Assembly (NCBI RefSeq): GCF_007748175.1
Contig: NZ_CP037422.1
Span: 1,652,528 to 1,716,527, forward strand
DNA length: 64,000 bases
Source of the DNA: Gimesia aquarii
Lineage (GTDB): Bacteria; Planctomycetota; Planctomycetia; Planctomycetales; Planctomycetaceae
Direction of reading: 5' to 3'
A model generated the notes under the pieces. It saw nothing but the letters and a program-made list of their open reading frames with translations. It had not been told where the DNA came from and did no database searches. The position numbers and the translations under genes were made by a program. Every line of letters starts with the position of its first letter. The stretch's first letter is position 1. This document shows positions 5,219 through 9,176 of the stretch, one piece after another.

Positions 5219-6655
5219 ATGAATAATAAGCCAAAACTGACCACAACAGGCGGCGCGCCGATCGCCGATAATCAAAATTCAATCACAGCAGGCCCCCGTG
5301 GTCCGGTTCTGTTACAGGATTACCAGTTGATCGAAAAACTGGCTCATCAAAATCGCGAGCGGATCGCGGAACGGGTTGTGCATGCCAAAGGCTGGGGCGC
5401 GTTTGGGACATTGACCATCGAACATGACATCAGCAAGTATACCAAAGCGAAAGTGCTGCAGCCGGGAGCTCAAACCGAAATGATCGCGCGCTTCTCGACA
5501 GTGGCTGGCGAAGCAGGTGCCGCCGACGCAGAGCGGGATGTGCGTGGATTCGCCTTGAAGTTCTATACGGAAGAAGGAAACTGGGACCTGGTCGGCAATA
5601 ACACCCCGGTCTTCTTTGTGCGAGACGCTTATAAGTTTCCCGATTTTATCCATACACAGAAGCGGCACCCGCGCACTAATTTACGTTCCCCCACCGCAAT
5701 GTGGGATTTCTGGTCGCTCTCACCAGAATCATTGCATCAGGTCACGATCCTGTTTTCAGATCGTGGGTTGCCGATCAGTGTGCGTCATATCAATGGTTAT
5801 GGGAGCCACACTTTTAGTTTGATCAACGATCAGAACGAGCGGTTCTGGGTCAAATTTCATTTCAAAACAGAGCAGGGGCATAAACACTGGACGAACGAAG
5901 AAGCCGAGCAGGTTGTCGGCAAGACGCGTGAAAGTACTCAGGAAGACTTATTCTATGCCATCGAAAAAGGTGACTTTCCTAAATGGAAGTTTCAGGTACA
6001 GATCATGCCGGAAACCGATGCCGACCTGACGCCTTATAATCCGTTCGACCTGACCAAAGTCTGGCCGCACAGTGATTATCCCTGTATCGATGTCGGTACC
6101 ATGGAATTGAATCGCAATCCGGATAATTACTTCGCGGAGATCGAACAGGCCTCGTTTTCTCCGTCCAATATCGTGCCGGGCATCGGATTTTCTCCTGATA
6201 AAATGTTGCAAGCCCGCATCTTCTCCTACGCGGACGCACACCGTCATCGTTTGGGCACGCATTATGAATCGCTACCGGTCAACGCACCGAAGTGCCCCGT
6301 GCACCACTATCATAAAGACGGTGCGATGTGCTTTAAGTCGAACGGTACGAATTCGGATGCGTACTACGAACCAAACTCCTTCAACGGACCTGTAGAGCAA
6401 CCCGATGTAGCAGAGCCCCCACTCAAAATCTCAGGTGATGCCGACCGCTATGATCATCGTGAAGGCAACGACGATTATGCACAACCACGTGCTTTGTTCA
6501 ACCTGTTTGACGACGGGCAGAAAGCTCGCTTGTTCTCGAACATCGCCGCAGCCATGCAGGGTGTTCCCGATGAGATTGTGGAACGACAGCTCAAGCATTT
6601 CGAACTGGTTGATCCTGCTTATGCAGCCGGTGTGCGAGAGGCTCTGAAAGGTTGA
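5219..6655 (+). CDS. katA: monofunctional heme catalase
   Basis: The enzyme decomposes hydrogen peroxide to water and oxygen using heme. The 478-residue length fits small-subunit (clade 3) catalases. All key residues are present: catalytic His55 in [13 protein letters not shown], distal Asn127 in [13 protein letters not shown], and heme-ligating Tyr337 in [27 protein letters not shown] (91-103) is the usual heme-pocket stretch. There is no signal peptide, so it is probably cytoplasmic. A strong GAGGAG lies 9 nt before the ATG. A bidirectional terminator follows. It appears to be a single-gene unit; no OxyR or PerR gene is adjacent. Confidence 0.96.
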
Positions 6656-6676
6656 TAAGATCGAATGAAAATTAAG

Positions 6677-6714
6677 AACCACTCTCCGCATAAATGGAGA
6701 GTGGTTGGTTTATT
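6677..6714. terminator. bidirectional terminator between catalase and the 783-aa gene
   Basis: AACCACTCTCC-(8 nt)-GGAGAGTGGTT is a perfect 11-bp stem (6677-6687 with 6696-6706) followed by a T-rich tail. It sits between the two convergent stop codons. Confidence 0.85.
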
Positions 6715-6732
6715 TTTACTATTGAGGAAATA

Positions 6733-9084
6733 TCATCTACTACCTTCTGGTCCGAATAGCCAATGACGACCATTAGTCCATCCCAGAAAACGTCGTGCAT
6801 TCCGATCACTTTCGATCGACTTTTCACTTGCCGCAAGTTGAAGCCCTAGCAATGCAGGATGAAACTGAGACTGAAACACACTAGGTTGCTGACTGAGATA
6901 ATCTTGAGCCCAATCCAAAAAAAACAGAAGGTCATTTTCTGAAACTAACGAAAGGTAAAAAACCATCTGTCTCCAAGCATAAGCCGTGTTTTTAAAAGTA
7001 ATCAACGACGCATGCCATGAAGGTGATTTCTGCTGCAGCCGTGTAGAGATCCAAGTAAAACAACCACGCGCCATTGATAAGAGCCGGTCTTTTAGTTCAT
7101 TCATCAAGTTTAGATTTTGGAACAATACCGCTAAATTCTGAGTAGTCAATATTTGCTGTTGTTCAATAATCATTCCATTCACAGCAACATTCCAACCGCC
7201 ATATTCAACGCCTGCCCTTATTTCACAGAGTTTGGCAAAAGAGATCTTCGGAGTTCTTCCAAACCGTTTATAATCTGATTCCTGTCTTTCAAAAATTTTG
7301 CTGACTGACTTAAAATCGATTCCATAATAGAGTTCATAAAGTGTACCCGAAAGCATTTCTGCGGACTGTTTTGCTGCTTTGTTAAATTGATTGGAAAAAT
7401 CGCCCATAAAGATATCTGCTGCAATTTCATTAACTAGCGGCAGATTCAATTGAGATACTTTTGCCAGCGCTTTCAGTTCCTGCAGTAACTTATTAGGAAT
7501 GATTACATGCGGGAACGATAGCAAAGTCAGAGCACTCACTTCACGCAGGGTCTGTGTTGCAAGTTCCTGCGATGGTAAATTGTCATGGCGAAATTGATCG
7601 ACAACAGATACCCAAGGAAGTTCCTCGATCTGGACTTGATGTTCTAAATTCAAAAGTAACAGTGATCGGCGCCGACGAAAGGCTCTATAAATAGATGCAT
7701 ACAATTGCTGTAACTGAGGATCGGTAATCCCAGCAGCACGTAGATCAGACGTAATCTGCGGCAATACTTGGGCGAGAGTTTCACCAGATTTAATCACTCC
7801 GTTTCGTACCAAAATTTCAATTGATTCGACACAACAACGTTCAATTTTACGTAATAAAAATACCGGAATCATTGTAGAAACAGGAGGTCCAAACTGTTGG
7901 GACTCCTGTTCGTTGATCAAATCAGTCACCGGAAAAAGATCTTCGATACCACTTTTAAGTGGATATTTTTCAAGTCGAGATATCACAACTCTGGATAGCT
8001 CAAAATAGTTGGCGCCATTGGCTTGACTAACTTGTCTTTCTCGAGCTTCTTGGCAGATAGAAGAATCTGGTGTTCCTCTTCGACTAATATATCGTGCCAA
8101 TAGTAAACGAATTCGCTTCACTGCTCGTTCATCAATTAGGTTCGAATCATCCAGATATTGTTGTAAATAAAATCTTAACTGTGAAAAGTTCTCTTTTTTT
8201 CGTTCTGGTTTACCACACAATTGATGCACACAACGTTTTTCGACATATTCGTCCAATAGGTTCTGTGCGCGTTCCTCCCACCCAGTTGGAAAAGTCTGGC
8301 AAGGCCATCCTCCCAACAACGCTTGGTCCTCATTCAAAAACGGTGGAACACCTTCCACTGTTTCCAAAAAAAGGCTCACCGTCTTATCGTACAGAGGTGC
8401 CCAGATGGTAATGGCCTCTAGCTGTGCAAGAATTCGAGGATTAGGACGAATTTTATTGAGATTTTCCAGTGTCGACTCAACGTCTTGTAAGTAAACACGA
8501 GAACCAAATCGGCAAGGCTGATCTGTTGGAATTGGATAGAAACGCAGTTTACTGAAGTAGGGACCGATCACCTCAAGCAGTTCTCGAGCTGCTTGCGAGT
8601 GTCCCTGACCAAGCAGCCATGCAACTACAAGTAAAGCCCCCTCTTCCGGAACTTCGACTTCAAACCGTCCTGTAGCAAGAATTTCCTGCAAATGAGATAC
8701 CCCATTGTCAGTCAAAAAAAATTGATTCAAAGTTTGTCTTGGGTTTCCATCGGAGGTGAGTGAGAAATCTGAAAGCAGTTTTAATTCATGTTCACGAATC
8801 TCGCCGCCCGCTAACAGGTTACCAGTTGCGAAGCCTCCCGTAACCACTTCCAGTGTTGCCCATTGAGGAATTCCGGACACGGGGGTCCGTGAACCTACCT
8901 CATTGCCTCCCAGCATAATACCTTCAAAGACCTGCAACCATTTCTCAATTTTTGCCTGGGCACGCTGACGTGTTTTCGCATCTGAATGTTCTTCATATGT
9001 TTTCAGTGCTTTGGTTAATTGACCAATCACGAATCCAGGGTTTATACCGAGATTATTGGATTCCGTTGAGTATTCTTTTTCCAT
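6733..9084 (-). CDS. large protein of unknown family behind a tRNA-like gene
   Basis: I place the start at ATG 9084 (MEKEYSTESNNLGINPGF), giving 783 residues. The frame stays open a further 26 codons, but those codons are the tRNA-like gene read in another sense. The protein has no signal peptide or long membrane segment and is predicted mostly helical. Near the N-terminus is a lysine/alanine-rich helix (TKALKTYEEHSDAKTRQRAQ), then a Gly-rich segment (LEVVTGGFATGNLLAGGEI). The middle is Arg/Lys-rich (RAVKRIRLLLARYISRRG, YRAFRRRRSLLLLNL), which could suit RNA contact (inference). I recognise no catalytic motif. No clear Shine-Dalgarno is visible in the 21-nt gap after the tRNA-like gene. Its intact length and convergent terminator argue for a functional gene. 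Confidence 0.85.
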   Translation of the reverse strand: MEKEYSTESNNLGINPGFVIGQLTKALKTYEEHSDAKTRQRAQAKIEKWLQVFEGIMLGGNEVGSRTPVSGIPQWATLEVVTGGFATGNLLAGGEIREHELKLLSDFSLTSDGNPRQTLNQFFLTDNGVSHLQEILATGRFEVEVPEEGALLVVAWLLGQGHSQAARELLEVIGPYFSKLRFYPIPTDQPCRFGSRVYLQDVESTLENLNKIRPNPRILAQLEAITIWAPLYDKTVSLFLETVEGVPPFLNEDQALLGGWPCQTFPTGWEERAQNLLDEYVEKRCVHQLCGKPERKKENFSQLRFYLQQYLDDSNLIDERAVKRIRLLLARYISRRGTPDSSICQEARERQVSQANGANYFELSRVVISRLEKYPLKSGIEDLFPVTDLINEQESQQFGPPVSTMIPVFLLRKIERCCVESIEILVRNGVIKSGETLAQVLPQITSDLRAAGITDPQLQQLYASIYRAFRRRRSLLLLNLEHQVQIEELPWVSVVDQFRHDNLPSQELATQTLREVSALTLLSFPHVIIPNKLLQELKALAKVSQLNLPLVNEIAADIFMGDFSNQFNKAAKQSAEMLSGTLYELYYGIDFKSVSKIFERQESDYKRFGRTPKISFAKLCEIRAGVEYGGWNVAVNGMIIEQQQILTTQNLAVLFQNLNLMNELKDRLLSMARGCFTWISTRLQQKSPSWHASLITFKNTAYAWRQMVFYLSLVSENDLLFFLDWAQDYLSQQPSVFQSQFHPALLGLQLAASEKSIESDRNARRFLGWTNGRHWLFGPEGSR

Positions 9085-9097
9085 GATAGATTGGCTC

Positions 9098-9121
9098 AAA
9101 AAAAGTCCGGGGGCTGGACTT
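9098..9121 (-). terminator. terminator hairpin overlapping the 3' half of the tRNA-like gene
   Basis: On the minus strand AAGTCC-AGCCCCC-GGACTT forms a 6-bp stem with a 7-nt loop, and the T-run continues for five more bases. Its left arm uses bases of the T-loop/T-stem and its loop and right arm use the T-stem and 3' acceptor strand, so it cannot coexist with the folded tRNA-like structure. It lies just before the start at 9084 and could act as an attenuator. Confidence 0.5.
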
Positions 9122-9176
9122 GCACCAGCACCCTCTCGGTTCGAAGCCGAGCGTTCTAACATTGAACTACCCCGGA
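9105..9176 (-). tRNA. atypical tRNA-like gene, anticodon TCG (Arg-type)
   Basis: The minus strand folds as a full cloverleaf of 71 nt plus one discriminator base. The acceptor is TCCGGGG/CCCCGGA. The D arm is GTTC-AATGTTA-GAAC. The anticodon arm is CTCGG-CTTCGAA-CCGAG, which places TCG at 34-36 (reads CGA, Arg). The T arm is GCTGG-TGCAAGT-CCAGC. All stems pair perfectly. The elbow is abnormal: the D loop has GT where GG (18-19) is expected, and T-loop position 55 is G instead of T. The discriminator is C and no CCA is encoded. A T7 run follows directly. It may be a divergent tRNA, a decaying one, or a tRNA-shaped leader of the 783-aa gene. Confidence 0.65.

Follow-up and report, generated by a model that had tools for sequence, protein, structure and literature searches.

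A gene for a tRNA-like RNA and the gene for a 783-residue protein, P0001, follow one another on the minus strand of a 64,000-nucleotide stretch of Gimesia aquarii (contig NZ_CP037422.1, positions 1,652,528–1,716,527), referred to here as the window. The two genes recur as a pair in many bacterial lineages, and we are nearly certain that the pairing is real. The unit looks like a previously unrecognized two-part system, and no title or opening abstract in the literature searched describes such an RNA–protein unit. An earlier note, made from the sequence of the window, had proposed that RNA and protein form one unit, with chance adjacency of an ordinary tRNA as the null. The first of these claims is borne out below and the null is rejected by the repeated pairing. 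The parts of the locus are as follows.

9105–9176, minus strand: tRNA-like RNA, 72 nt, full cloverleaf; TCG at the anticodon position; position 73 is C; CCA not encoded.
9140–9146, minus strand: anticodon loop CTTCGAA; the opening C-T does not vary among relatives, the other five bases do (alignments A4 and A7).
9118–9124, minus strand: T-loop TGCAAGT; the start is TTC in 21/24 non-actinobacterial rows.
9157–9163, minus strand: D-loop AATGTTA, without GG; GG is present in 22/24 non-actinobacterial rows.
9085–9104, minus strand: spacer of 20 nt between the tRNA-like RNA and the open reading frame (ORF), with a T tract at its start.
6733–9084, minus strand: protein P0001, 783 aa, predicted nearly all helical; family absent from every library searched.
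7645–7680, minus strand: conserved segment FRRRRSLLLLNL, residues 469–480; partly a low-confidence loop in the model.
7129–7164, minus strand: conserved segment EQQQILTTQNLA, residues 641–652.
6949–6984, minus strand: conserved segment AYAWRQMVFYLS, residues 701–712.

The complete cloverleaf, 20 nt before the 783-residue ORF as the earlier note had described it, was recognized by both ARAGORN and Rfam. ARAGORN reports it as tRNA-Arg(TCG) and as the sole tRNA of the window; the Rfam match (RF00005) scores 66.5 bits with a gathering threshold of 29. Covariance model R1 gave the window RNA 86 bits and the next best sequence in the same genome 64.1 bits. With 69 tRNAs in 7.2 Mb, the chance of a same-strand tRNA at most 150 nt upstream is about 0.0007 per gene. 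The P0001 frame remains open through the tRNA-like gene up to an ATG at 9162, within the D-loop (6733–9162, 809 codons).

A single-protein search of 99 relatives found the family in the window's genome and in two congeners, G004 and G009 (55% identity), each with a tRNA-like gene 22–23 nt upstream of the protein gene. When the G009 RNA was used as query, the copies of G004 and the window were both 93% identical; ARAGORN reads the anticodons within the genus as TCG (window), Ile(GAT) (G004) and SeC(TCA) (G009). A profile search of the genome_contigs set yielded 28 loci, from Planctomycetota, Opitutia, Rhodocyclaceae, Pseudomonas, Melainabacteria, Anaerolineales, Chloroflexi, Deltaproteobacteria and Streptomyces. 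ARAGORN placed a same-strand tRNA upstream at 25 of them and the covariance model added L061, giving 26/28. Six further matches came from plasmids (Embleya, Streptomyces, Curtobacterium), and all five loci fetched carry the RNA. Seven of 199 Pseudomonas genomes have the protein, one of them in decayed form, and the RNA is present in 7/7. Planctomycetota carry the protein in 11/392 genomes, and here the pairing is weaker, with the RNA in 6/11 (G000, G004, G009, G134, G335 and G111).

In Streptomyces, a protein match was found in 36/246 genomes, 26 of them nearly full length; the 36 comprise L061, 29 further loci that were examined, and six weak fragments without a locus, which the RNA counts leave aside. 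The RNA lies upstream in 28 of the 29 further loci, none of which was used in building the model; L183 lacks it. In 26/28 the RNA is at most 200 nt from the first matched residue. The two outliers are L173, which is mismeasured (the locus is cut short and the ATG follows directly), and L182, a decayed copy. The sample sets overlap (L047 lies within G457, and L064 and G111 are the same contig), so the counts are not summed. Wherever RNA and protein gene occur together, the RNA is always 5′. Several short Streptomyces matches, including L181 and L184, belong to a diverged subfamily in which the match begins at about residue 92–117; L181 and L184 also have a tRNA-like gene upstream, with loop CTGCACA.

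Among the 199 Pseudomonas genomes, a search that scored at most four candidates per genome found the tRNA-like gene at ≥97% identity only in the seven protein carriers and in 0/192 others; the next match is a tRNA-Asn gene in G512 (85% over 54 nt). Among the 99 relatives it occurs in 3/3 carriers and in 0/96 others at E <1e-7, the best match in the latter being in G070 (75%). Because the pairing recurs and protein and RNA co-occur, chance adjacency was rejected. The note had named two outcomes that would count against a unit. Homologues without the RNA do exist, as a minority. The other, an ordinary tRNA-Arg found at unrelated places, is not what was seen: no copy was detected at E <1e-7 in the 96 protein-less relatives, so the gene is not present irrespective of the protein; the elbow is not canonical (D-loop AATGTTA, T-loop TGCAAGT); and the anticodon is not kept in close orthologues (TCG, GAT and TCA in one genus). 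An ordinary extra tRNA-Arg was accordingly ruled out by the change of loop among orthologues together with the absence of a copy from protein-less relatives.

The cloverleaf is conserved, with a loop that changes. In 32 aligned copies (31 distinct), 651/651 cloverleaf base-pair cells hold standard pairs, with two-sided changes at 14/21 pairs; slid controls reached at most 51%. All 588/588 cells of the Streptomyces set are also paired, in an alignment that was fitted to the model. In the 91 pairwise comparisons among 14 Pseudomonas loci, the mean difference is 2.4% in the body, 8.6% in the loop (34–38) and 57% at fourfold sites. The corresponding values for 300 pairs of 25 Streptomyces loci are 8.0%, 50% and 45%. 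Between G004 and G009, 2/65 body positions and 3/5 loop positions differ, at a fourfold divergence of 0.16. The loop is thus always more variable than the body; it changes at approximately the neutral rate in Streptomyces and is clearly constrained in Pseudomonas, where CTCTTAA is common to 12/14 loci. We make no claim for positive selection on the loop. Across the alignments 32 distinct loops were seen, C32-U33 is kept in 61/61 rows, the loop is shorter than 7 nt in 4/32 A4 rows, and the highest entropy of the molecule (A4) is at position 36. An apparent pyrimidine bias at 34–35 (24/28 seven-nt rows) weakened with the Streptomyces copies to 19/28 distinct seven-nt loops and was not relied on.

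Other parts of the RNA vary by lineage. Position 73 is C in 17 rows, T in 7 and G in 8, all eight G rows being actinobacterial. The T-loop starts GGC rather than TTC in 37/37 actinobacterial rows, and the D-loop lacks GG in 29/37. Both GG and TTC are missing from the window RNA and from L044. The altered elbow that the earlier note had described is real in the window, but it is not common to G004 and G009, which have GG and TTC; the note's test for the same elbow upstream in other genomes was not borne out, and the actinobacterial copies have another (the GGC T-loop). CCA is encoded in 15/15 Pseudomonas rows and in 0/3 rows of the window's genus, as is also the case for the ordinary tRNAs observed in the two groups. 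Four loci hold tandem copies whose loops differ, with two copies at L040, L095 and L176 and three at L087. Under R1 the top-scoring ordinary tRNAs are tRNA-Asn(GTT), with 76.7 bits in G460 and 73.5 in G512, which makes a tRNA-Asn ancestor plausible. The tRNA-like copies score 71.6–95 bits in the earlier sets of loci and 66.6–84.6 bits in the further Streptomyces loci; these ranges overlap the ordinary scores, so R1 by itself does not separate the two. The likeness to tRNA-Asn lies in that best ordinary score. The copies differ from it in that GTT stands at the anticodon in only 1/61 aligned copies (L179), the 24 non-actinobacterial rows have C or T instead of G at position 73, and the gene is linked to a single protein family.

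The note's statement that the protein has no recognizable domain held up. P0001 has no Pfam match at E ≤0.01 and no match in Pfam, NCBIfam or PADLOC at E ≤1; a sequence search of the PDB returned nothing significant (best E 0.56). For 29 family members, the best values (E 0.014 in Pfam, 0.0036 in NCBIfam, 0.014 in PADLOC) are not significant and are scattered across unrelated families. No relatives were found in the phage collection; 27 pattern matches in viral contigs included none that is related. Structure prediction, which the note had proposed, gave a confident, nearly all-helical AlphaFold2 model (27 sequences, pLDDT 87.2, pTM 0.80). In fold searches, neither the whole model nor residues 484–783 gave a confident match, a negative that does not by itself establish a new fold. 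The Arg-rich segment noted earlier is FRRRR at residues 469–473. Strongly conserved segments (GSRTP, FRRRRSLLLL, AADIFMG, EQQQILTTQNLA and AYAWRQM) include stretches of low model confidence (63–67, 474–482 and 555–560), which might be loops that order upon binding. Family proteins are about 760–810 aa long. L064 and L066 have broken protein genes and are left out of the protein alignments (A2, 29 rows; A3, 27 rows). In a tree of 42 proteins, the root of which is a drawing device, the window groups with G004 and G009 (100/97) and then with L040 (100/99). The 18 Pseudomonas copies form one clade holding CTT, CTG and CCT loops, the actinobacterial copies are separate, and four RNA-less copies lie near the base of the remainder.

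The gap between RNA and start codon is 20–23 nt in the window's genus and 24–52 nt in the Pseudomonas loci measured. In 13/14 Pseudomonas loci, TTCACA and GACAAT or AACAAT, 16–18 nt apart, lie within 60 nt before the RNA; judged by sequence, these elements look like a promoter for both genes. A consensus scan found no minus-strand sigma-70 promoter before the window tRNA. At 9103–9121 of the window, the 3′ part of the RNA and the T tract make a terminator-like hairpin (one found, 0.2 expected in shuffles), whose formation would exclude the cloverleaf.

The observations set out so far (repeated pairing, a full cloverleaf, a conserved body, a changing loop and tandem copies), together with repair genes beside four loci, are the base for interpretation. 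We tentatively favor the proposal, to which we give somewhat less than an even chance, that the RNA is a trans-acting tRNA mimic that works with its protein as bait, sentinel or substrate in a conflict over tRNA damage and repair. The two genes would be one unit that spreads between bacteria. A single transcript would give rise both to the tRNA-shaped RNA, presumably freed by ordinary tRNA processing, and to the mRNA of the partner protein. The mature RNA would then act in trans, bound as the RNA partner of the protein. Action in trans is suggested because the whole body is under selection, including the anticodon stem that should be dispensable for processing, because CCA follows the host, and because loops differ between tandem copies. 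The RNA would be a tRNA body, with tRNA-Asn its nearest ordinary relative by score, whose anticodon loop has been freed from decoding; the altered elbow in one lineage, the odd loop lengths and the variability of position 73 speak against a usual decoding role. An attacker that cleaves anticodon loops (a ribotoxin), or a repair machine, may meet the mimic and take it as bait. The protein would bind, sense or present the mimic, and the loop may set which attacker or tRNA class is addressed.

RNA repair is the nearest functional pointer that the neighboring genes suggest. At L040 the opposite strand carries Hen1 (4.2e-114), a DUF5677 protein, two RlaP and Pnkp (6.2e-182); the DUF5677 protein sits between RlaP and Hen1 (6533–8053). 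At L065, Hen1 and Pnkp lie upstream on the same strand, with the end of Pnkp 70 nt before the RNA. L064 has Hen1, and G111, which is the same contig, has before the RNA an ORF of 704 aa that matches a metallophosphatase and, partially, the Pnkp ligase (1–120 of 377), so that copy may be broken. An RNA ligase (PF09414, 5.3e-12) is directly upstream of the unit in G004. Hen1 occurs in 38/392 Planctomycetota, in 5/11 carriers vs 33/381 others (Fisher p 0.002, without correction for kinship). According to PMC4411300, a Pnkp1-Rnl-Hen1 complex repairs tRNA whose anticodon loop the ribotoxin colicin D has cut, and its 2′-O-methylation protects against a second cut. The likeness to Pnkp-Hen1 repair lies in the genes that adjoin the unit at L040, L065 and L064 (G111) and in the action of that system on ribotoxin-cut tRNA (PMC4411300); the difference is that the repair genes are separate from the unit and that Hen1 is not found in the window's genome.

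A stronger version of the proposal is that the unit is an unrecognized cross-phylum RNA–protein immunity module. The conserved body would carry an exchangeable loop as the specificity element, with one to three versions at each locus. The helical protein would read the state of the loop (intact, cut or repaired) against ribotoxins or phages. We regard this version as rather less likely than not.

A number of results weigh against the proposed tRNA mimic. Two of the 28 genome_contigs loci (L063 and L067) have no RNA nearby, and neither do 5/11 planctomycete carriers (G141, G202, G242, G339 and G157), among which the G157 match is a fragment of 65 residues, the G339 copy begins at the end of a contig and the G242 copy contains stops. 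The reverse case is seen in G070 (L141, 7579–7773), where two tandem tRNA-likes of 82.6 and 83.5 bits, with similar bodies and loops CTCCCA (by eye) and CTCTGGA, have no family protein within 16 kb; they are possibly orphans, remnants or RNAs with another partner. The Streptomyces loop rate is close to the fourfold rate, so relaxed constraint is possible there, and with one loop in 12/14 Pseudomonas loci an arms race is not evident in that genus. In 25/25 Streptomyces loci an in-frame ATG lies 0–1 nt past the model end, which fits a leader role. Since the constraint on the loop in Pseudomonas and the leaderless layout in Streptomyces point in opposite directions, our odds for the readings are unchanged. 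A second, native tRNA-Arg(TCG) gene elsewhere in the genome has a normal T-loop and the anticodon loop CTTCGGA, so the window loop, CTTCGAA, does not copy it exactly. No catalytic or RNA-binding motif was recognized in the protein.

No Hen1 was detected in the window's genome; G004 and G009 carry the gene away from the unit and have it in common with non-carriers of the genus. Near its unit the window encodes a catalase, a hydrolase and a TetR regulator. No repair gene was found among the singly scanned neighbors of L041–L044, of G134 and G335, or of four Pseudomonas loci (one neighbor each). A wider tally covered 72/121 flanking ORFs of 16 loci, with 25/95 Pfam and 25/33 PADLOC families listed, a scope within which repair and defense genes could be missed or over-read. 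Among the PADLOC families listed for the 72 ORFs, with at most three ORFs each, were mad3, mad8, AriA, mad2, single QatC and DitA, and many E1-E2. An all-against-all comparison of flanking ORFs from 31 loci revealed, among the matches listed, no neighbor common to most lineages that could be a conserved operon partner; what matched were the repair genes at L040, L064 and L065, shadow ORFs lying opposite the gene for the protein, and scattered ORFs shared between two loci at a time.

In type III toxin-antitoxin systems such as ToxIN, an RNA, sometimes repeated, lies upstream of the protein gene, presumably in one transcript. The protein described here could likewise be a toxin that attacks tRNA or translation, inhibited by the tRNA-like RNA as an antitoxin made from the same transcript. 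The layout is the same, with the RNA in one to three copies upstream on the same strand; the spread is patchy and includes plasmid copies, the window RNA ends in the terminator-like hairpin, and in G494 the RNA is intact and the protein mostly deleted. The unit differs from type III systems in having a full tRNA cloverleaf and a protein of about 760–810 aa, much larger than the usual type III toxins, for which neither Pfam nor PADLOC gives a toxin family. Moreover, L063, L067, L096 and L098 retain the protein without detectable RNA nearby, and inspection by eye showed no T run after the RNA in the Pseudomonas rows. An RNA-inhibited toxin is unlikely on this evidence. The Pseudomonas copies L066 and G494 (L118 and L119) both have a large internal deletion in the protein gene beside an intact tRNA-like gene.

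If the RNA were instead a charged tRNA of hybrid identity that mistranslates codons, the protein would charge, deliver or control it. A precedent exists in Streptomyces, where tRNA-ProX, a tRNA body with changing anticodons, adjoins the gene of a dedicated protein, ProRSx (PMC11415595). The tRNA-Asn-like body bearing other anticodons fits such a role, as does CCA encoding that follows host custom. The present protein differs in that no aminoacyl-tRNA synthetase family was found in 29 members (Pfam and NCBIfam), and the spread here is cross-phylum. The GGC T-loop start in 37/37 actinobacterial rows, loops shorter than 7 nt in 4/32 rows and a position 73 that is C, T or G by lineage also speak against a decoding tRNA, and we judge this explanation quite improbable.

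The tRNA fold might act only in cis, as a leader that times the processing or translation of the downstream gene. The RNA is 5′ of the gene wherever the two are paired, and with the ATG 0–1 nt past the RNA in 25/25 Streptomyces loci, tRNA processing would give a nearly leaderless mRNA. A leader would not predict the conservation of the whole body, anticodon stem included, beyond what processing alone would be expected to need, nor the encoded CCA and mostly fixed loop in Pseudomonas, nor the tandem copies. The chance that the fold is merely a leader seems to us slim.

Bacterial Y RNAs mimic tRNA, and the Ro60/Rsr protein is paired with such a tRNA-like Y RNA. A similar particle, with a helical-repeat protein and a tRNA-like RNA acting in RNA quality control, would account for a helical protein beside a tRNA-like RNA and for the RNA-repair neighbors at some loci. 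It differs from the present case in that the RNA here has a complete tRNA shape and the protein has no TROVE domain: none was matched in 29 members at E ≤1, nor is TROVE among their 13 weak Pfam families. TROVE proteins form a separate family, present in 15/59 relatives and not in the window's genome. A Ro-like particle is very unlikely. Finally, a mobile gene that used a tRNA as its integration site could have produced the pairing by accident. The distribution looks mobile, and a serine recombinase gene lies near L041. This reading is largely contradicted and almost certainly wrong: in most loci the same distinct RNA stands 5′ and on the strand of the protein gene, and relatives without the protein do not have it. 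At L041 (12794–14386) the recombinase gene is shortly downstream of the unit and may hint at mobility.

A pair of this kind is easily annotated as a spare tRNA beside a hypothetical protein and then overlooked. If the tRNA-mimic proposal is correct, the unit would represent a new use of tRNA outside translation (in 36/246 Streptomyces, 7/199 Pseudomonas and 11/392 Planctomycetota genomes) and could add a player to the tRNA-damage conflict among bacteria, phages and toxins; tractable hosts carry it.

The window's genome also contains two tRNA arrays, at L037 9170–10738 (15 genes, ∼3.87 Mb) and L036 8502–9644 (11 genes, ∼4.82 Mb), in which many genes have a low Rfam score. In G009 an array with partly the same gene order is located directly upstream of the unit (L035 12764–14005).

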